Shown here: piece by piece, positions 42,580 to 54,071 of the stretch
Layout: each line of letters begins with the position of its first letter
Position numbering within the stretch: position 1 is the stretch's first letter
NCBI RefSeq assembly: GCF_025311495.1
Contig: NZ_CP104398.1
Location: forward strand, 558,001-622,000
DNA length: 64,000 nt
Origin: Limosilactobacillus oris
GTDB taxonomy: Bacteria > Bacillota > Bacilli > Lactobacillales > Lactobacillaceae
Direction: 5' to 3'
Notes under the pieces: generated by a model
What the model saw: the letters and a program-made list of their open reading frames with translations, nothing else
Database searches by the model: none
Told to the model about the DNA's origin: nothing
Position numbers and translations under genes: made by a program

Positions 42580-42873
42580 ATGCTTTTACCAATCTTAGTG
42601 ACCCTTTTCGGGCTAATTGCCCTGTTTGAGGGTGTTTTCTTCCTGACCCACCTCCATAAGGACTTCCTGATCCTTGAACCCACGCGCAGCCCCTTCGTCG
42701 CCCGCCAATTAAAAGTCTGGGGAATCATCCTAACCATTTTGGGACTGATCACGGTTGGCGCGGCGTGGACCGATAACATTACTTTTATTGTAATCATGGT
42801 CGTCCTTGGCTGCATTTTAGAAACCCAGATGGCTTTTTCGGTCACCAGCGAATTTCGGGCTAAGTACCACTAG
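42580..42873 (+). CDS. Small three-helix membrane protein, unknown
   Basis: 97 residues with three hydrophobic segments (PILVTLFGLIALFEGVFFL, KVWGIILTILGLITVGAAW, ITFIVIMVVLGCILETQMA). Polar loop HLHKDFLILEPTRS between helices 1 and 2. It follows the 6S terminator and precedes uspA. No family identified. Confidence 0.7.
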   Translation: MLLPILVTLFGLIALFEGVFFLTHLHKDFLILEPTRSPFVARQLKVWGIILTILGLITVGAAWTDNITFIVIMVVLGCILETQMAFSVTSEFRAKYH

Positions 42874-43531: not shown

Positions 43532-44374
43532 GTGAATTCCAAAACCAATTTACTAACCCTTGCCGATGGTCAGCAAATGCCGCAAGAAGGGTTCGGCCTC
43601 TATAAAGTTACCGGCCAGCAAACGATTTCCGCGGCAATCGCCAGTGCCTACCAGGCCGGCTACCGGCTGTTTGACACCGCCCAGCTCTACCAAAACGAAG
43701 CCGAGGTTGGGCAGGCCCTCGCTGACCTGCGCGTCCCCCGGGAAGAACTGTTCGTGACCACTAAAGTCGCCGAAGAAAACCAAGGCTACCAGCGGACGAT
43801 TGCTTCGGTGAAGGATTCCCTTCATAAGCTCCAGCTTGACTATGTTAACCTCCTGATGATCCACTGGCCGATTGAGCGGGCCTTCTTCGATAGCTGGCAG
43901 GCCCTAATCGACCTTAAAAAGGCGGGCCTAACCAAGTCCATCGGGGTCAGCAACTTTCAAATGATCCACCTGCAACACCTCGCGACCCAGGCGAGCGAGC
44001 TGCCAGTCGTCAACCAAATTGAACGGCATCCCCGGTTAAACCAGGCCCCCCTGGTCAAGTTTGACCGTGAGCACGGCATTGTGACCCAGGCCTGGAGTCC
44101 GCTGGGCCGGGGAACCATCCTCGCTAATCCGGTTCTCAAGCAAATTGGCGACCACCACCATAAGTCCCCTGCCCAGGTGGTCCTCCGGTGGCACCTGCAA
44201 AGCGGGGTCGCCTTTATTCCTAAATCTGTCCACCAGGCCCGAATCGAGCAAAACATGGATATTTATGACTTCGAACTAACGGCTGACGAAATGGCTAAGA
44301 TCGACGCCCTCAATGATTTTCACCGGACAGGCAAGGAACCCGCACTGGTCTACGAATATAATAAGAAGTGGTAA
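43532..44374 (+). CDS. Aldo/keto reductase
   Basis: NADPH-dependent carbonyl reductase of the 2,5-diketo-gluconate reductase type. Catalytic residues visible: Asp and Tyr in FDTAQLYQNE, Lys in VTTKVAEEN and His in LLMIHWP. Cofactor-site ending FIPKSVHQARIEQNMDIYDF. 280 residues, complete. The substrate cannot be inferred from the context. Confidence 0.93.
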   Translation: MNSKTNLLTLADGQQMPQEGFGLYKVTGQQTISAAIASAYQAGYRLFDTAQLYQNEAEVGQALADLRVPREELFVTTKVAEENQGYQRTIASVKDSLHKLQLDYVNLLMIHWPIERAFFDSWQALIDLKKAGLTKSIGVSNFQMIHLQHLATQASELPVVNQIERHPRLNQAPLVKFDREHGIVTQAWSPLGRGTILANPVLKQIGDHHHKSPAQVVLRWHLQSGVAFIPKSVHQARIEQNMDIYDFELTADEMAKIDALNDFHRTGKEPALVYEYNKKW

Positions 44375-44394: not shown

Positions 44395-44488
44395 GCGCTG
44401 GTTCAACAACGTTTGATCTGCTAGTCAGCGATTAGCTTTAAACTAATAATGAGGCAGAGAGAAAACAAGTTTTCTCTCTGCCTCATTT
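44395..44488. repeat. Intergenic repeat with bidirectional terminator
   Basis: Ends in a perfect hairpin (44448-44488; arms AATGAGGCAGAGAGAAAAC / GTTTTCTCTCTGCCTCATT) between convergent genes. The segment GATTAGCTTTAAACTAATAATGAGG before it is a variant of the CTTTAAAATA repeat family. Confidence 0.7.
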
Positions 44489-44491
44489 AAC

Positions 44492-44818
44492 TTATTGATG
44501 GCTAAACTGCGCTTTGATTCGGCGCGGCTGGTGTTGGTGCCAGTAGCCGATTCCATTAACGTGGCGGTAATGATCCCACTCATGCTTTTTAATCAGGAGA
44601 CGTTTCTCTGGTTCACCCACTGGCGATACGTCCACCTTATCCATGCAGTATAAGTACATAGCAAGCAGGATCGTGTCGGAAACGATGCCCACTCCGGTAA
44701 AGAGGAGCAAGAAGCCAACTACGGAGAAGACCTTTTCAAACTTTGTCCACCGCCGGTAGTAAATTACCCCTTCTTGGAGCCTATCTGTCTCGACTGGTTT
44801 TAACTTATGAAACTTCAC
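44492..44818 (-). CDS. Small membrane protein under an AraR-type operator
   Basis: 108 residues from a GTG at 44818 with GGAGG upstream. Cytoplasmic N-terminus (HKLKPVETDRLQEGVIYYRRW), two hydrophobic segments (VFSVVGFLLLFTGVGIVSDTILLAMYLY as one long or two short helices), then a basic C-terminus (KRLLIKKHEWDHYRHVNGIGYW). No family recognised. Its promoter holds an AraR-type operator between -35 and -10, so it probably belongs to the arabinose regulon. It might be a transport accessory or regulator; this is inference. Confidence 0.72.
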   Translation of the reverse strand: MKFHKLKPVETDRLQEGVIYYRRWTKFEKVFSVVGFLLLFTGVGIVSDTILLAMYLYCMDKVDVSPVGEPEKRLLIKKHEWDHYRHVNGIGYWHQHQPRRIKAQFSHQ

Positions 44819-44851
44819 TAATCCTGCCTCCAGTTCTTATTTACTAACCAT

Positions 44852-44880
44852 ATTCTATACTTATCCGGACAAATATGCAA
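44852..44880 (-). promoter_or_regulatory. Promoter with AraR-type operator (44492-44818 gene)
   Basis: Minus strand: -35 TTGCAT (44875-44880), 17-nt spacer, -10 TAGAAT (44852-44857). The spacer is filled by ATTTGTCCGGATAAGT (44859-44874), matching the operators of araA, araB and the permease. Confidence 0.75.
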
Positions 44881-44906
44881 GCGGTTCCAGATAAATCAGC
44901 TAATAA

Positions 44907-44938
44907 AAAGGCGGCCACCAGGAAAGCGGCCGCCTTTA
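44907..44938 (-). terminator. Terminator of araA
   Basis: Stem AAAGGCGGCC / GGCCGCCTTT with an 11-nt loop, T run on the minus strand, 22 nt past the araA stop. Confidence 0.88.
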
Positions 44939-44960: not shown

Positions 44961-46385
44961 TTACTTGATGTCGATCAATTCGATGCCGAACAGGTTGGCA
45001 AGAGTTGCCATCTGATCCATCGTCAGGTTCATAGAAAGAACAGTGTGGTGACCACCACCATTGTGCATCCAGGCGGTAGCGCCCTTCTTTAAGCCGCACT
45101 TTGGCGTCCACATCTGCTTAGCAACTGGCAGGTTTGGCATTTCCTTTTCTGGCTTAGCACAGTCCACGTCGTAAGCAATGAACTTGTAGCCATCATCGAA
45201 GTATGACAGGGTAACGTCGATTCCTTCGCCTTCTGAACCGGTGAATACCAACCGTGCTGGGTCGGCCTTGTCACCGATGTCCAGTGGGTGAACTTCAACC
45301 CGTGGCTTGTCAGAAGCAAGGGTTGGGTCAACTTCCAGCATGTGGGAGCCCATAATTGCCTGGTGACCAGAACGCAGGTCCAGGGTGTAGTCTTCCATGA
45401 AGGCCGTTTCCTTGTTTTCAGCCGCAATCTTCAGCAGACGGGAAAGACCAGCGGACTTGAAGTCCCCTTCGGCACCGAAGCCGTAACCATCAATCATCAG
45501 CAATTGAACGGCTAAGCCTGGTAACTGTTCCAAGCCTTCCAGGTCTTGGAAGTTGGTGGTAAAGGCATCGTAGCCCTTTTCGTCTAGGAAGTGCTTAATT
45601 CCTAAGTATTCACGCAGTTGGTAACGAACGGAGTGCACGTACTTGTCGTGGTCGTTGTCGCCTTCAACCATGTCGTAGTTTTCTTCCAGCCGCTTGTACT
45701 GTTCGTCAATTTCTGCTTCGCTAACCGCGTTAACAGCGGCAACCAGCTCAGCTACTGGCCAGTAGTCAACGGTCCAGCCCAGCTTGATCTGGGCAGCGAC
45801 CTTGTCACCTTCCGTAACGGCAACGTCACGCATGGTGTCGCCGAAACGAGCAATCTTAATCTTGAAGCTCATGTCGTAGGCAATCGCAACTTTTTGCCAG
45901 TCAGCGATTTCTTCTTGAACTTCGGGATCGTTCCACCAGCCGTAAACAATCTTTTCAGGAACGCCAAGACGGGCGTTGATGTAGTCGTATTCACGGTCGC
46001 CATGGGCACTCTGGTTCAGGTTCATGTAGTCAAAGTCAATGGTGTCAAATGGGATGTGGTCCAGCATTTGGGTTGCCAGGTGCAACAATGGCTTTTGCAG
46101 CAACTGGGTTCCCCGAATCCAGTTCTTAGCTGGTGAGAAGGTGTGCATCCAGGTCATTACCCCGGCAACCTTATCATTGTAGTTAGCATCCTTCATGAAC
46201 TTCGTGATGCTATCAGCAGTGGTGGCAACCAGCTTAAAGACTACCTTGTATGGCAGCTTGCCGCTGGCGTTTAAGCCGTCAACCAGCTTGCGGCCATCCT
46301 TTTCAACCTGCTCTAAGGCTTCTGGACCATAGAGGGGTTGACTACCAACAGCAAACCAAAATTCGTAATCTGGAGTTTTTAACAT
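44961..46385 (-). CDS. araA: L-arabinose isomerase
   Basis: Converts L-arabinose to L-ribulose, first step of arabinose catabolism; Mn-dependent cytoplasmic enzyme. N-terminal [34 protein letters not shown], metal region [14 protein letters not shown] and C-terminal [15 protein letters not shown]. 474 residues, normal. Transcribed alone from an AraR-controlled promoter, separate from araBD. Confidence 0.97.
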
Positions 46386-46455: not shown

Positions 46456-46484
46456 ATTATATATAATTTGTACGGATAAATCAA
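46456..46484 (-). promoter_or_regulatory. araA promoter with AraR-type operator
   Basis: Minus strand: -35 TTGATT (46479-46484), 17-nt spacer, -10 TATAAT (46456-46461); operator ATTTATCCGTACAAAT (46466-46481) fills the spacer. A cre-like TGTAAGCGATTTAG lies just downstream. Confidence 0.85.
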
Positions 46485-46582: not shown

Positions 46583-47941
46583 TTATGCCTTCTTCTTAGC
46601 AGCAGTCATCTTGCGCATTGAAGCTTCGATCTCTTCCAGCGACTTCCCCCGGGTTTCCAGGAAGAACTTGTTGGTAAAGATGATACAAATGACACAGATA
46701 ACACCGTAGATAATGAAGGTATTCGCAATGTCAAACGCTGCTAGCATGGTTGGGAAGGTCAAGGAAACAACCATATCAGCCAGCCAGTTCGTAGCGGAAC
46801 AGAGGGAAGTCCCCAGCCCACGGATGTTCAGTGGGAAGACTTCACCAATGTAAACCCAAGTAATTGGTGCCCAGGTACATGCGTAAAAGGCAATGTAGAC
46901 GGTCAGCGCAATCGCACTGACGTAAGCAGCGGCTTGGGAACCGCTATCCATCTTCAGGATTGCGGCCATGACAAACAGTGACAGACCCATGCCGGCAGCA
47001 CCAACGGTCAGCATCTTCTTCCGGTCAACGTGGTCCATCAGCAGCATAGCAACCACCGTCACAATCACGTTAACGATCCCGATACCGATGTGGGCCAGCA
47101 AGGCAGCGGCCACACCCCAACCAACTTTGGTAAAGATGGTTGGTGCATAGAAGATAACTGAGTTAGAACCGATAATCTGTTGGAAAATGGCCGCCCCTAA
47201 CCCAGTAACCAGGGCTGGCCGAACATCAGCACCGAACAGTTCTTTCCAGCCACCCTGCTTTTGGTTGGCGGAAACCTGAATTTCTTCCAAGGCAGTGTCA
47301 ACGGCTTGTTCATCACCCTTGTTGGTGTTCATCAAAACGGCCCGGGCTTCATCAGTCTTACCAATTTTAACTAAGAACCGGGGACTTTCTGGCAGGAGAA
47401 GGGCACCGAAGAAAAGAATAATAGCAGGTAATGCAGCAAATCCCAACATCCAACGCCAACCAGTGTACATCCCTTGGAAGGTGTAGTTCAAAATGTAAGC
47501 CAACAGGATCCCAATCATGACCATCAGTTGGAACATCGTCGCTACCGCACCGTGCATCCGTTTTGGTGCCAGCTCGTGCAGGTAGGCAGGAATCAACGCT
47601 GAGGTGATCCCAACACCAATCCCCAAGATAACCCGGGTTACCAACAGTGTCCAGTATTCTGGCGCAAATCCTGAACCTAAGGCACCAATCGTAAAGATAA
47701 TTGCGGCCCAGATCAATAGCTTCCGCCGCCCGTACTTATCTAGGAACTTACTCGTTCCCAACGCACCAAGAATGGCACCAATCAGAACGGACGAAACAAC
47801 CATCCCTTGTTCCCAAGAGTTCAAACTTAACTGCTTTTGGATAAATAGAATGGCACCAGAAACGGAAGCAATGTCGTAACCGAATAGTAAACCACCTAAC
47901 GCCCCAAAAGTATAGATAAATCCATTTGAAACTTTCCTCAA
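46583..47941 (-). CDS. araE: Sugar-porter MFS symporter, probable arabinose permease
   Basis: 452-residue, 12-helix sugar porter (FGALGGLLFGYDIASVSGA, DKYGRRKLL, PESPRFLVKIGK, FLETRGKSLEEIE). The family includes AraE, XylT and GalP; substrate assigned from the AraR operator and position between araA and araR. TTG start at 47941, with GGAGTG 7 nt upstream. Integral membrane protein, proton-coupled. Confidence 0.9.
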   Translation of the reverse strand: MRKVSNGFIYTFGALGGLLFGYDIASVSGAILFIQKQLSLNSWEQGMVVSSVLIGAILGALGTSKFLDKYGRRKLLIWAAIIFTIGALGSGFAPEYWTLLVTRVILGIGVGITSALIPAYLHELAPKRMHGAVATMFQLMVMIGILLAYILNYTFQGMYTGWRWMLGFAALPAIILFFGALLLPESPRFLVKIGKTDEARAVLMNTNKGDEQAVDTALEEIQVSANQKQGGWKELFGADVRPALVTGLGAAIFQQIIGSNSVIFYAPTIFTKVGWGVAAALLAHIGIGIVNVIVTVVAMLLMDHVDRKKMLTVGAAGMGLSLFVMAAILKMDSGSQAAAYVSAIALTVYIAFYACTWAPITWVYIGEVFPLNIRGLGTSLCSATNWLADMVVSLTFPTMLAAFDIANTFIIYGVICVICIIFTNKFFLETRGKSLEEIEASMRKMTAAKKKA

Positions 47942-48042: not shown

Positions 48043-48131
48043 AGTATAGATTATTTGTCCGTATAAGTCAATAAAACGGTTACAATAATTTGGCGGATTA
48101 TGCAGACAATTTTATTCTATACCGGACAAAT
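48043..48131 (-). promoter_or_regulatory. Permease promoter with two AraR-type operators
   Basis: Minus strand: -35 TTGACT (48066-48071), 17-nt spacer, -10 TATACT (48043-48048). The proximal operator ACTTATACGGACAAAT (48053-48068) fills the spacer. A second, TCTATACCGGACAAAT (48116-48131), has its centre 63 bp upstream, six helical turns, as expected for cooperative looping. A cre-like TGTAAGCGCTTGAA lies at ~48026-48040. Confidence 0.78.
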
Positions 48132-48263: not shown

Positions 48264-49343
48264 TTACTTTGTGAGGTCTTTTACAGACTGCCGCTCAATA
48301 ATCTCGGGATGGTAAACAATCGGGTCAACCTGCTCCCCCTTGATCAGACGCAAAATCATCTTTCCGGCATCCATCCCCATCTTGTTCTTCGGGTGAACGA
48401 CGGTCGTCAAGCCGGGCAGCACAGACGCGCTCAGTAAGTAATCGTCAAAGCCGACAATACTAATATCATCGGGAATTTTCATTCCCAGCGACCGGACAAC
48501 GTCCATCACCTGAATCGCTAGCTGGTCATTGTAGCAGGCAATCGCCGTTGGCCGTTCCATCCCTTGCAGATGCTGGGCCAGCTTGGCAAAGATGGAGGCG
48601 ACATCATCGCTGGACTGGTACATAATCACATCACTCAGCAGGGTCTTATCCGGGTGCGCGGTGTAGGCATCCATGAAGCCCTGCAGGCGCCCCACCCCCT
48701 GCATATCGTCAATCTTGAAGATCCCCAAAATCCGCTCGTGGCCCTTGTCAAACAGGCCGTTTACCAGCTGCGCTTCCGTTTCCCGGTCTGCCAAGTCAAT
48801 GTACGGCAGGGACGAGTCGTTGTAGTGGGCATCAATAAACATTGCTGGGATCCGGGACTTTTCGATTTGCTGGTAGAGGTCTCGGTTGGGGTTCGGCCGG
48901 GCACTTTGGGTCGGCTCCAAGATTAGGCCATCGACATTGCTATCCAGTATCCGTTGCAAGCTGAGCCGTTCCTGGTCGTGATCGTTGTGGGTATTGCCCA
49001 AGAGAATCGAGTAGCCCTGACTAGAGAGGGCCCGGTCAATCCCGCTAATGATGCTGGGGAAAATGTAATCTGCCAGATGGGTCGTAACCACCCCGATGAC
49101 CTTCTGGTTAACCGGCTGGTCATGGTTGTTGTGCCAATCCTCGACAAACATTCCGCCACCTTGGATCCGGTAAATGTAATGCTCGTTCTCGAGTTCTCCC
49201 ATGGCCCGGCGAATCGTGTAACGACTGACCTGGTACTCCTTCATCAGCGCCGATTCCGTTGGCAACTGGTCCCCCGGCTGGTATTGTCCAGAGCTAATCA
49301 CCTCGCGAATTTTTTCCTTAACTGTTTCGTACTTAGTTGCCAT
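48264..49343 (-). CDS. araR: Arabinose operon repressor AraR
   Basis: 359 residues: GntR-type winged helix (ISSGQYQPGDQLPTESALMK, SRYTIRRAMGELE) plus a LacI/periplasmic-binding-like effector domain (IGVVTTHLADYIFPSIISG, CYNDQLAIQVMDV, SIVGFDDYLLSASVLPGLTT). This chimera is characteristic of AraR, which is released from DNA by L-arabinose. Third gene of araB-araD-araR; the 80-nt gap to araD contains a hairpin that may lower its expression. Confidence 0.95.
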   Translation of the reverse strand: MATKYETVKEKIREVISSGQYQPGDQLPTESALMKEYQVSRYTIRRAMGELENEHYIYRIQGGGMFVEDWHNNHDQPVNQKVIGVVTTHLADYIFPSIISGIDRALSSQGYSILLGNTHNDHDQERLSLQRILDSNVDGLILEPTQSARPNPNRDLYQQIEKSRIPAMFIDAHYNDSSLPYIDLADRETEAQLVNGLFDKGHERILGIFKIDDMQGVGRLQGFMDAYTAHPDKTLLSDVIMYQSSDDVASIFAKLAQHLQGMERPTAIACYNDQLAIQVMDVVRSLGMKIPDDISIVGFDDYLLSASVLPGLTTVVHPKNKMGMDAGKMILRLIKGEQVDPIVYHPEIIERQSVKDLTK

Positions 49344-49423: not shown

Positions 49424-50155
49424 TTAATTTTCCCGCTTAGCATGGTCCTTGCTGTGGGCGTTGTTTTGGCCGTAGTAAGCATTTGCCCCGTGCTTGCGGT
49501 AGTAGTGCTTATCCAACAGGTATTGTGGCAGGTGGTTGTCCGCCCGGGTCAGCTGCAGGGTGTGGTAGTCTTCTTCAGCAACGACTTCCAGCACCTTGGC
49601 ATTGTAGACCGCCTTGTCTGGAGTTGGTCCCCAGGCAAATGGCCCGTGCTGCATCACTAGGGCAGCTGGCGTCGCTTCGTAATCGAGACCCCGTTCCTTG
49701 AAGGAGCGAACGATTACCTTCCCGGTGTTGCCCTCGTAATCCTCTTCGATTTCTTCCTTGGTCAGGGCGTCGGCAGCCGGCACATCCGTGTAGAAGGTAT
49801 CAGCGTGGGTCGTGTTCATCGCTGGAATATCCATGTGAGCCGCCGCAAAGGACACTGCCCATGGGGAGTGGGTGTGGACAATCCCCCCGATCTTTGGGAA
49901 GTGGTTGTAGAGGTAAGTGTGCGTTGGGGTGTCACTGGATGGGTTGAGGTCCCCTTCGACCACTTCCCCGTCCAAGTTGACTACCACCATGTCTGAGGGC
50001 TTCAATTCTTCATACGGAACACCGGACGGCTTGATTACAAACAAGCCCTTCTCCCGGTCGATTCCGGAAACGTTCCCCCAGGTAAAAGTGACCAGACCTA
50101 ACTTAGGCAGCTTCATGTTGGCTTCGTAAACTTCTTGTTTTAATTCTTCAAGCAT
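49424..50155 (-). CDS. araD: L-ribulose-5-phosphate 4-epimerase
   Basis: Converts L-ribulose-5-P to D-xylulose-5-P, the phosphoketolase substrate. Class II aldolase-like fold: TFTWGNVSGID, KPSGVPYEEL, the zinc ligands in HTHSPWAVSFAA, and QHGPFAWG. 243 residues. 17 nt after araB, clearly cotranscribed. Confidence 0.96.
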   Translation of the reverse strand: MLEELKQEVYEANMKLPKLGLVTFTWGNVSGIDREKGLFVIKPSGVPYEELKPSDMVVVNLDGEVVEGDLNPSSDTPTHTYLYNHFPKIGGIVHTHSPWAVSFAAAHMDIPAMNTTHADTFYTDVPAADALTKEEIEEDYEGNTGKVIVRSFKERGLDYEATPAALVMQHGPFAWGPTPDKAVYNAKVLEVVAEEDYHTLQLTRADNHLPQYLLDKHYYRKHGANAYYGQNNAHSKDHAKREN

Positions 50156-50172: not shown

Positions 50173-51777
50173 TTAGTTTAACTTCATATCTTTACCGGCT
50201 TTGATTTCTGCTGGCAAAGCTGCTTTATAGTTGTCGATAAACTTTTCATAGCCCTGGACACTTTCAGGTTCAGGGTACAGGGTTGCGCTCTCGCTGTCAA
50301 CAAATACTTCGTCATCCAGGTAGTCTGCCAGGTTTTTACCCTTGTTATCACTGGCGTAGAGGGCTAAAACAGCCATCCCCCATGGGCCACCCTCACCGGC
50401 ATTGCTCATCAGAGTAATTGGGGTGTTCAGGGCGTCTGCCAAGACCTGTTGGGCAACTACCGGGGTCTTGAACAGTCCCCCTTGCGCAATCAAAACATCC
50501 GTTCGGATATGTTCTTCACGGAGGAGGATGTCCATCCCGATTTTAAGGGGTGCAAAGGCAGAGTAGAGCTGAACCTTAAAGATGTTTGCCAGGGTAAAGT
50601 GGCTGTCCGGCTTACGGACCATCATCGGCCGTCCGTCCTGAACCTTGGTGATGTTTTCACCGGACAGGTAGCTAAAGTTGACCAAGCCCCCGGCGTCCTG
50701 ATCACCCCGCAGGGAAGCATCAAAGAGCTTTTCGTAAAGCTGGTTCGGTGACAGGTTGACCCCCAGAACCTTGGCAAACTGGTTGAAGACACTGGCCCAG
50801 GCATTGATGTCGGACGAACAGTTGTTGGTGTGGACCATTGCCACTGGTGCCCCGTCCGGTGTCGTTACCATGTCGATGTCCCGGTGAACCTTATTCAGTT
50901 TCTGGTCGAGGACCACCATTGAAAAGGCGGAGGTCCCGGCAGAAATGTTTCCTGTCCGCTTCCGGACCGCGTTAGTAGCAACCATCCCGGTCCCGGCATC
51001 CCCTTCTGACGGCGCAATCAAAGAACCGGCTTGCAACTGGCCACTAATGTCGAGGAGTTTGGCCCCCGCTTCGGTTAGTTTCCCGGCTGGCTGACCAGCT
51101 AAGAGGACGTCCGGCAAGATCTCCCTGATATTCCACGGGTACTGGGCAACCTCCGGCAGACTGGCAAACTGCTCCAACATCTTGCCATCGTAGTTCTTCA
51201 TCGCTTCATCAATTGGAAACATTCCGGAAGCGTCACCGATTCCCGTGTTCTTGTTGCCAGAGAGCTTCCAGGAAACGTAGCCGTCCAGGGTGGTGATGAA
51301 GTCAATGTCCTTGACATGGTCTTCCTTGTTCAGGATAGCCTGGTAGAGGTGGGCGACACTCCACCGTTCTGGAATATTGAAGTTAAACAGCTTCGTCAGC
51401 TTTTCGGCTGCCTCGCCGGTAATGTTGTTCCGCCAAGTCCGGAACGGCACGAGCAGGTTGCCGTCCTGGTCAAACGGCATGTAGCCGTGCATCATGGCAC
51501 TGATTCCAATCGAACCGATCTTCGTCAGCTTGAGCCCGTATTCCTCACTCACGCTGGCGGCCAAGTTAGCATAGCTGGTCTGGATTCCCTTCCAGACCTT
51601 TTCCAACGGGTAGGTCCAGATGTTGTCATGCAGCTCGTTTTCCCAAACGAAGTCCCCAGAAGCAACGACTTGGTAGTCATCGGTTACCAAGACCGCTTTG
51701 ATCCGGGTCGAACCTAATTCGATTCCCAAAGCAGTGTTGGCGCTTTCAATTTTTTCTTTAATGGCACTGTTATTCAC
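50173..51777 (-). CDS. araB: Ribulokinase (FGGY family)
   Basis: Phosphorylates L-ribulose. FGGY fold: ALGIELGSTRIKAVLV at the N-terminus, IGISAMMHGYMPFD, VPFRTWRNNIT, and the C-terminal GGLFKTPVVAQQVLADAL and SNAGEGGPWGMAVLA. 534 residues. GTG start at 51777 with GGGAGG 8 nt upstream. First gene of araBDR, with an AraR-type operator in its promoter. Confidence 0.95.
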   Translation of the reverse strand: MNNSAIKEKIESANTALGIELGSTRIKAVLVTDDYQVVASGDFVWENELHDNIWTYPLEKVWKGIQTSYANLAASVSEEYGLKLTKIGSIGISAMMHGYMPFDQDGNLLVPFRTWRNNITGEAAEKLTKLFNFNIPERWSVAHLYQAILNKEDHVKDIDFITTLDGYVSWKLSGNKNTGIGDASGMFPIDEAMKNYDGKMLEQFASLPEVAQYPWNIREILPDVLLAGQPAGKLTEAGAKLLDISGQLQAGSLIAPSEGDAGTGMVATNAVRKRTGNISAGTSAFSMVVLDQKLNKVHRDIDMVTTPDGAPVAMVHTNNCSSDINAWASVFNQFAKVLGVNLSPNQLYEKLFDASLRGDQDAGGLVNFSYLSGENITKVQDGRPMMVRKPDSHFTLANIFKVQLYSAFAPLKIGMDILLREEHIRTDVLIAQGGLFKTPVVAQQVLADALNTPITLMSNAGEGGPWGMAVLALYASDNKGKNLADYLDDEVFVDSESATLYPEPESVQGYEKFIDNYKAALPAEIKAGKDMKLN

Positions 51778-51816: not shown

Positions 51817-51845
51817 ATTGTAAAATATTTGTCCGTACAAATCAA
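51817..51845 (-). promoter_or_regulatory. araBDR promoter with AraR-type operator
   Basis: Minus strand: -35 TTGATT (51840-51845), 17-nt spacer, -10 TACAAT (51817-51822). The operator ATTTGTACGGACAAAT (51827-51842) is the most symmetric copy in the window and matches the AraR consensus known from B. subtilis. Confidence 0.88.
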
Positions 51846-51858
51846 ACTAATTTATTAG

Positions 51859-52749
51859 TTAACTGTAAAATAATTTCATTTGCAGGCTCTCCCGGAAGTT
51901 GCCAAAGCCCTGGCCGTAAATGGTACAGCCCCCTTTATGGGTGGCCGTCTTCTTGACTTCAAAACGGAGGACAAAGCGGTCCGGATCGTAACTCAGGTCC
52001 GCCAATGAGACTGGTGACCAGGGTTGCCCATCCAGGTAAGTACCGTGGTCGGTAATCCGGAAAGTCTTTTGCAGGCCATACTGGTTGACGTTATTCGGCA
52101 CCCAGGCCGGCGTGTACTTTCCCCGGACATCCGAAAAATCCCCTGGTGAAGTCCAAAAGCCCAGCTCGGTGCCGTTCACGGAAACCGTGATATCGGACGG
52201 CCAATTATTATTAGAAAAGGGAAACTCACTCCCGAGTTCCGCCACGATATCAATCATCTGGAGGTGGTCACTGTCCTTGAGGTGGTTGGGCAGCTGGTAT
52301 TCAAGGTAGCCGTCGTTGAACCAGACCATCCCCGCTTCCATCCGGTGAGGATCCATGAAGTAGGATGGGTTGTCGACCTTGCCGATATAATCGGTGCGGC
52401 CTGCCATCCCGCAGGAGGGTTTGACGGAGAAGTTCGTAAACTGGCCGACCGGGACCTCGGTTTTATAAACATTGAAGAGTTCATAAATGGTCTTTGGAAA
52501 GGCAATGTTAATTTTATCTACCTTAATTTTGGCAACCTTCTTATGCCCGACCTGGTTAAATTGAATAATTTCCGCCTTTGCCAGTTTTTTCAGGTGACGG
52601 GCGGTAATGGTCGCACTCAGCCCCAAGTGCGCCGCCAGCTCCTCGATGCTGAGCTGTTCCTTCGACAATAATTGGATGATTTCTAACCGCACGGGGCTGG
52701 CAAGTGCCTTATACACATCCAAATAGTCCTGTGAAATGGTAGTTTCCAC
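51859..52749 (-). CDS. ArsR-type HTH regulator with C-terminal sensor domain
   Basis: About 296 residues from a GTG at 52749 (GGAGG 8 nt upstream; a TTG at 52770 is less likely). The N-terminal ~80 residues are an ArsR winged helix (YKALASPVRLEIIQLLSKEQ, ELAAHLGLSATITARHLKKL). Residues ~95-296 form a beta-rich domain (MVWFNDGYLEYQLP, ITVSVNGTELGFWTSPGDF, GCTIYGQGFGNFRESLQ) lacking the metal-binding cysteines of classical ArsR. It looks like a carbohydrate-sensing jelly-roll, which is inference. Divergent from the GH43 gene, so it probably controls arabinoside use. It begins 82 bp beyond the araB start. Confidence 0.82.
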   Translation of the reverse strand: METTISQDYLDVYKALASPVRLEIIQLLSKEQLSIEELAAHLGLSATITARHLKKLAKAEIIQFNQVGHKKVAKIKVDKINIAFPKTIYELFNVYKTEVPVGQFTNFSVKPSCGMAGRTDYIGKVDNPSYFMDPHRMEAGMVWFNDGYLEYQLPNHLKDSDHLQMIDIVAELGSEFPFSNNNWPSDITVSVNGTELGFWTSPGDFSDVRGKYTPAWVPNNVNQYGLQKTFRITDHGTYLDGQPWSPVSLADLSYDPDRFVLRFEVKKTATHKGGCTIYGQGFGNFRESLQMKLFYS

Positions 52750-53099
52750 CCTTTTCTCCTCCTTCTCCAAACCAAAAAGTTGATATTAATGCAACAACAC
52801 TACAAAGTACTGATAACTAAGCATTTTTAATAATAAATTCTTTAATACCGACGTTAAGAAACAGTCCACCTTCTTGCAAACTAGGCTAACTTGCTTAGTT
52901 TGACCCATTTTTGCTTTTTTAGCCAACTTTTTAGTTATCTTTTTCACTAATTATGACACCGGTTACAAGAAACTGTCAATCAAATTATTGAGTTTAGTAA
53001 AATTTGTTCAATAAATTATTAACAACGTCTTGAAACCCCTTTCTTCTGACGGTATCTTATGCTTGTAAAATCAATTATCTGTTTTGAGGAGGATTTCTA
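52750..53099. promoter_or_regulatory. Regulatory gap between ArsR-type gene and GH43
   Basis: About 350 bp, AT-rich, no gene. It holds a GH43 promoter (-35 TTGAAA 53030-53035, 17 nt, -10 TATCTT 53053-53058) and several dyads. One is CAAACTAGGC...TTGCTTAGTTTG near 52878-52903. Another is TTGTT(C)AATAA...TTATTAACAA near 53004-53025, directly upstream of the -35. Both are candidate regulator sites. No AraR-type operator is visible here. Confidence 0.55.
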
Positions 53100-54071
53100 A
53101 TGGCAGAAATCAACTACACCGCCCCGCTGATCATCCAGCGGGCGGATCCATACATCTATCGGCACACCGATGGCTACTACTACTTTACCGCTTCGGTGCC
53201 AGCCTACAACCGGATTGAAATTCGGCGGGCACGGACAATCGAGGGCCTGGCCCATGCTGCTCCCCGGACAATCTGGCGCAAGCATGACGAGGGACCAATG
53301 AGCCAGCTCATCTGGGCACCGGAACTTCACTACATCGATGGCAAGTGGTTCGTCTACTTTGCCGCGGCTGAAACGACGGCCTTCGACGAAAACGGAATGT
53401 TCCAGCACCGGATGTTCTGCATTGAATGTGACCAGGACAACCCAATGGTGAAAGAAGAGGACTGGATCGAACGCGGCCAAGTCAAGACGCCGATGGATTC
53501 ATTCTCCCTGGATGCCACGACCTTCGAACTGAACGGTAAGCTCTACTACGTTTGGGCTCAAAAAGATCCTGACATCAAAGGGAACTCCAACCTCTACATC
53601 GCGGAAATGGAAAATCCATGGACACTCAAGACTAAGCCGGTCATGCTGAGTAAGCCGGAATACGACTGGGAAACCAAGGTCTTCTGGGTTAACGAAGGTC
53701 CTGCAGTACTCCACCGCAACGGTCGCCTCTTCCTGACCTACTCCGCCAGCGCCACCGACGAAAACTACGCGATGGGAATGCTGACCTGTGACGATGACGC
53801 CGACGTGCTCGACGCCGCCAACTGGTCCAAGTCAAAGACGCCGGTTTTCCAAAGTGACATTGACCACGACCAATTTGGTCCCGGCCACAACTCATTCACG
53901 GTTGCTGAAGATGGCAAGACCGACCTGATGGTTTACCACTGCCGGAACTACACCGATATCAAGGGTGATCCCCTGTACGACCCGAACCGCCACACCATCG
54001 TCAAGCCTTTCACTTACGATGAAAACGGGGTTCCTGAATTTGGCAAGCCGGTTCCATACAACTACAAATAA
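53100..54071 (+). CDS. Glycoside hydrolase family 43, probable intracellular arabinosidase
   Basis: 323 residues, five-bladed propeller type. Catalytic triad candidates: Asp16 (RADPYIYRH), Asp138 (SFSLDATTF) and Glu199 (VNEGPAVL). No signal peptide, so cytoplasmic. GH43 enzymes release arabinose or xylose from oligosaccharides; location beside ara genes and an oligosaccharide permease favours alpha-L-arabinofuranosidase activity. GAGGAGG site upstream; the permease gene follows 18 nt later. Confidence 0.9.
   Translation: MAEINYTAPLIIQRADPYIYRHTDGYYYFTASVPAYNRIEIRRARTIEGLAHAAPRTIWRKHDEGPMSQLIWAPELHYIDGKWFVYFAAAETTAFDENGMFQHRMFCIECDQDNPMVKEEDWIERGQVKTPMDSFSLDATTFELNGKLYYVWAQKDPDIKGNSNLYIAEMENPWTLKTKPVMLSKPEYDWETKVFWVNEGPAVLHRNGRLFLTYSASATDENYAMGMLTCDDDADVLDAANWSKSKTPVFQSDIDHDQFGPGHNSFTVAEDGKTDLMVYHCRNYTDIKGDPLYDPNRHTIVKPFTYDENGVPEFGKPVPYNYK

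Follow-up and report, generated by a model that had tools for sequence, protein, structure and literature searches.

The closest described system to the locus studied here is the AraR regulon of Bacillus subtilis, whose repressor is a GntR/LacI-type protein of the same architecture as the one encoded in the window, by which we mean the whole 64,000-nucleotide stretch of DNA that was analysed. The B. subtilis consensus for AraR binding is At(T/A)tGTaCGTAcaa(A/T)T (PMC4218819), and operators lie at the promoters of genes for arabinose catabolism and transport; the window resembles this system in both operator consensus and operator placement. Among small proteins that modulate transporters at the membrane, SgrT is also reported to have been modelled as a helical hairpin (PMC10710835).

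In the window, the gene for AraR lies near a small gene, here called X108, whose product has 108 residues. The name araA in the list below is presumed from the family, and the names araD and araB from the family together with position.

44961–46385, minus strand: araA, with its operator at 46466–46481
46583–47941, minus strand: araE-type sugar transporter (Sugar_tr), with its operator at 48053–48068
48264–49343, minus strand: araR, with GntR helix-turn-helix and sugar-binding domains (Pfam scan)
49424–50155, minus strand: araD, by family and position
50173–51777, minus strand: araB, with its operator at 51827–51842

Further observations were made around these genes. At a distance of about 60 bases on the upstream side of the operator of araE, TTTGTCCGGTATAGAAT (48112–48130, minus strand) is half operator-like and runs into a −10-like hexamer. 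Just upstream of araB, positions 51859–52770 encode a 303-aa protein with an ArsR-type helix-turn-helix and a long C-terminal part that has no Pfam name; its gene adjoins, in opposite orientation, a GH43 glycosidase gene (53100–54071), and a role as a regulator of arabinoside breakdown is possible. A hydrophobic 97-aa protein encoded at 42580–42873, which has no Pfam match, is kept beside a universal stress protein gene in relatives. Several relatives also carry a second AraR-like regulator (L011:11925–13001, L013:9095–10165 and L014:11935–13002) that is 50–52% identical to AraR and has GntR and sugar-binding domains in L011, the one scanned. In those relatives it adjoins the X108-flanking gene for an aldo/keto reductase; the window has no such regulator at this position, although its aldo/keto reductase gene (43532–44374) is still present.

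X108 itself and its control region consist of the following parts.

44448–44487, minus strand: symmetric hairpin 3′ of X108, which could terminate transcription arriving from either side
44492–44818, minus strand: X108 open reading frame, 108 residues, GTG start, stop included, for a predicted membrane-hairpin protein
44827–44832, minus strand: Shine-Dalgarno sequence TGGAGG of X108
44852–44880, minus strand: X108 promoter, TTGCAT-17 bp-TAGAAT, read from the sequence and scored
44859–44874, minus strand: AraR-type operator ATTTGTCCGGATAAGT, within the promoter spacer, conserved at 8 of 9 orthologue loci
44876–44889, minus strand: cre-like site TGGAACCGCTTGCA for CcpA, which shares bases with the −35 hexamer and is identified by its fit to the cre consensus
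44907–44937, minus strand: intrinsic-terminator-like hairpin in the gap between araA and X108 (folding: −24.2 kcal/mol, z −5.84)

A preliminary description had marked 44492–44880 as one feature. The feature is real, with the reading frame covering 44492–44818 and the remainder to 44880 taking in the promoter. The promoter and hairpin scan of the window, which had a threshold of 9 of 12 promoter matches, left the X108 promoter (8 of 12) unflagged; this promoter was read from the sequence and scored separately. The araA–X108 hairpin, which that scan also left unflagged, was checked by folding. A search of Rfam gave no match.

The operator core TTGTCCGGATAA (44872–44861) sits inside the 17-bp spacer of the X108 promoter. 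The same layout is found in araA (TTGATT-17-TATAAT), araE (TTGACT-17-TATACT) and araB (TTGATT-17-TACAAT), with the core starting 5 bases from the −35 start in these three and 8 bases from it in X108. The operator-in-spacer design that X108 had been said to share with araA and araB is therefore seen in all of them, apart from this 3-bp shift. The same design at the araE promoter is an additional observation, as is the cre-like site on the X108 −35 hexamer; the preliminary description mentioned neither.

The pattern TTRTNCGKAYAA occurs at 5 places in the whole 2,007,883-base genome, compared with a single match for its reversed control, and matches on both strands at only 4 places, which lie upstream of araB, araE, araA and X108. 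Because the pattern was derived after seeing these four operators, the count is a test of genome rarity and not motif discovery. An operator pattern first guessed gave no matches. Looser searches did not exceed their controls, whether with one mismatch in the window (not above shuffles) or with three mismatches in the genome (60 and 60 matches versus 80 and 80 for the reversed control), and the evidence therefore rests on the strict symmetric form of the operator. The four operators of the window fit the AraR consensus printed for B. subtilis in PMC4218819.

Comparison of the upstream regions of orthologues points to a conserved control region. An AraR-type operator of its own lies upstream of X108 at 8 of the 9 orthologue loci, and the cre site, operator and −10 hexamer are recognisable in all 8 aligned upstream regions, the cre site with at most one mismatch (counted by eye). 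Of the 38 columns that span cre, operator and −10, 27 are invariant, versus 7 of 61 in the flanks, as counted in five diverged Limosilactobacillus sequences that remained of the eight rows after near-identical ones were dropped. Folding also places a strong hairpin, differing from that of the window, at the same position of the araA–X108 gap in L011, L013, L014 and L015, the four diverged loci folded in addition to the window. At the ninth locus (L007, in G041), operator, cre site and significant hairpin are all absent and the gap is only 89 nt, which suggests that X108 is there co-transcribed by read-through from araA, operator and terminator having been lost. With an operator at eight loci and an operon-like arrangement at the ninth, X108 is thus tied to arabinose control by either route.

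The proposal that X108 belongs to the arabinose regulon is, accordingly, well supported in silico: its operator and the conservation of that operator, its position next to araA at all nine loci and its operon-like form in G041 make it a very probable member of the AraR regulon. X108 would be a lineage-specific AraR target, monocistronic and in an insulated transcription unit of its own, which AraR would repress by binding the operator in the promoter spacer. The window site TGGAACCGCTTGCA fits the cre consensus without mismatch, and through this predicted site on the −35 hexamer X108 is probably also under CcpA. Since repression would come from AraR and probably CcpA, X108 would be expected to be made in the presence of arabinose and the absence of preferred sugars.

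Orthologues of X108 were found at nine distinct loci, eight of them in 7 of 50 genomes of the genus and one in L. viscerum. Two of these loci are counted for G026, where they lie on separate contigs of one metagenome assembly, and a 29% match in G013, which lies inside a longer protein and is not an orthologue, was left out of the count. The preliminary description had asked whether homologues always stand near ara genes. For the orthologues the answer is yes: they lie directly after araA at all nine loci, so that conservation next to ara genes is indeed seen in relatives. The gene araA occurs in 29 of the 50 genus genomes; 7 of these 29 also have X108, which is absent from the 21 genomes without araA. 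Because 22 of the 29 genomes with araA are without X108, it is lineage-restricted and does not belong to arabinose use in general. A degraded X108 was not observed in the surroundings of eight X108-less ara loci that were read (L091–L095 and L097–L099), or in the short araA stretches scanned at the remaining X108-less loci, and a phylum-wide search of 398 genomes returned the window plus one marginal match only.

The distribution of X108 follows that of the neighbouring permease. Of the 50 genomes, 8 encode an AraE orthologue with 84% identity or more, and X108 is present in 7 of these 8 versus 0 of the 42 without such an AraE (Fisher p 8e-8, uncorrected for phylogeny); the exception, G003, has an 84% AraE orthologue and no X108. 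As these genomes share descent and locus, the co-occurrence is a pointer to a connection between X108 and AraE, not proof of one.

At the protein level, X108 is under strong purifying selection: against five diverged orthologues at 70–79% DNA identity, pN is 0.06–0.16 while synonymous sites are saturated. Searches against the profiles of Pfam, NCBIfam and PHROGs returned no family, in keeping with the earlier statement that X108 shares no recognised one. Sequence searches of the PDB gave no match, no significant fold match came from structure searches of the PDB or of viral models, and the gene is not described in the titles or abstract openings of the papers retrieved. An AlphaFold model from eight aligned sequences has a pair of helices (residues 26–41 and 45–58), strands and a further helix (78–88) at modest confidence (pLDDT 72), whereas the single sequence, when folded, came out as one long helix; a membrane hairpin of two short transmembrane helices (about 26–41 and 45–58) is therefore likely, not settled. 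Positive residues on both sides of this hairpin suggest that both ends are cytoplasmic, and the product would then be a small protein of the inner membrane whose conserved tail lies in the cytosol. This tail, KVxVSP...KxEWxxYR, is charged and aromatic.

Such a tail, together with the position of X108 directly after araA at every orthologue locus and the operon-like arrangement in G041, could be taken to mean that X108 controls arabinose metabolism and not transport, perhaps because the tail tethers AraR, AraA or AraB to the membrane. We consider this improbable: X108 is missing from 22 of the 29 genus genomes that have araA, and nothing points to an enzymatic or DNA-binding role.

A profile search also uncovered distant relatives of X108 elsewhere in the Lactobacillaceae (genera g4, g38 and g37 of the genome set). 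When the ara-linked set was compared with eight of them, the two profiles matched with 99.1% probability (E 4e-19); weak profile matches at E 0.001 to 0.1, including L054 and L055, were taken as chance. The unnamed hairpin domain of these proteins shares with X108 the core YYRR-T, the hydrophobic hairpin, KVxVSP and WxxYR, but it is only 24–28% identical and has no ara genes near it. Moreover, the relatives in L025 and L045 end in a C-terminal SHOCT domain (PF09851) that is absent from X108. The protein in L025 (positions 826–2046, in G013) has 407 residues, with an X108-like hairpin domain and the SHOCT at its C-terminus, and is encoded near ion-channel-like, ImmA/IrrE-like and transposase-like genes, as named by eye. 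Thirteen stretches around relatives or weak matches, compared with the ara proteins of the window, contained no ara gene; in L053, a segment some 4 kb from the relative weakly matches the helix-turn-helix end of AraR, and two more stretches, L116 and L117, were listed and inspected by eye only. The upstream regions of eight distant relatives were tested, and none contained an AraR or cre site. Because its distant relatives stand away from ara genes and have no AraR sites, the hairpin domain is, judged by these sequence comparisons, not arabinose-specific.

The occurrence of the domain in Lactobacillaceae settings unrelated to sugars, by itself or joined to SHOCT, favours a reading in which X108 is a general membrane-associated protein, serving envelope homeostasis or protection from sugar or proton influx, that came under AraR control in this lineage and acts on the membrane instead of on AraE. 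This is possible though below an even chance, and nearly as likely as a role on AraE; it is weakened by the retention of X108 with its operator at the ara locus throughout the ara clade, and by the motifs WTKFEK and YWHQHQP, which are invariant in that clade and not in the distant relatives. The relatives also bear on whether X108 came to the ara locus as a passenger of mobile or prophage origin and plays no part in arabinose use, since one of them, in G559, lies beside integrase-like and ImmA/IrrE-like genes and another, in G013, near an ImmA/IrrE-like gene (all named by eye). A passenger origin is nevertheless very improbable: phage records, plasmid records and viral contigs yielded no X108 match, and both the purifying selection and the operator extend over diverged species.

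X108 neighbours the ara genes, shares their type of control site and has been retained in related species, and it therefore probably assists arabinose uptake or use. Our best guess for that help is an AraE-accessory role; for the wider proposal, that it may be an accessory component of pentose uptake or its control, the pointers are membrane topology, co-regulation and co-occurrence with the AraE orthologue. The explanation that we favour, tentatively and at somewhat less than an even chance for the whole, is that the AraR-regulated X108 hairpin lies next to the AraE-type permease, with which it is co-regulated, and modulates the activity, stability or assembly of that permease; the action on AraE, taken by itself, is possible but rather doubtful. 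A bolder version, which we regard as unlikely, is that X108 founds a new family of membrane-hairpin modulators of major-facilitator (MFS) sugar permeases and that AraE is adjusted after its synthesis by a co-induced partner. The gene would then derive from a more general Lactobacillaceae membrane domain that a single Limosilactobacillus lineage brought under the control of AraR and CcpA.

In kind, X108 is an ordinary find, a co-regulated gene whose family has no name, and it adds a conserved membrane protein without known family to a well-studied sugar regulon. If AraE is modulated, X108 would provide an example, in lactobacilli, of a major-facilitator sugar permease with a small protein as its partner. 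If it is not, the locus would illustrate how a sugar repressor can gain an unrelated membrane gene as a target within one lineage, in that case by an insulated promoter of its own or by fallback on read-through from araA. Set against the ara genes named for B. subtilis in the excerpt of PMC4218819, X108 is an extra AraR target, and the window has one symmetric spacer operator at each of four promoters where B. subtilis, in the same excerpt, has cooperative pairs at three of five. Like SgrT, which acts on PtsG, and AcrZ, which acts on AcrB, X108 would be a small, membrane-placed modulator of a transporter, its candidate target AraE being suggested by co-occurrence; it differs from both in its larger size (108 aa) and its conserved cytosolic tail.
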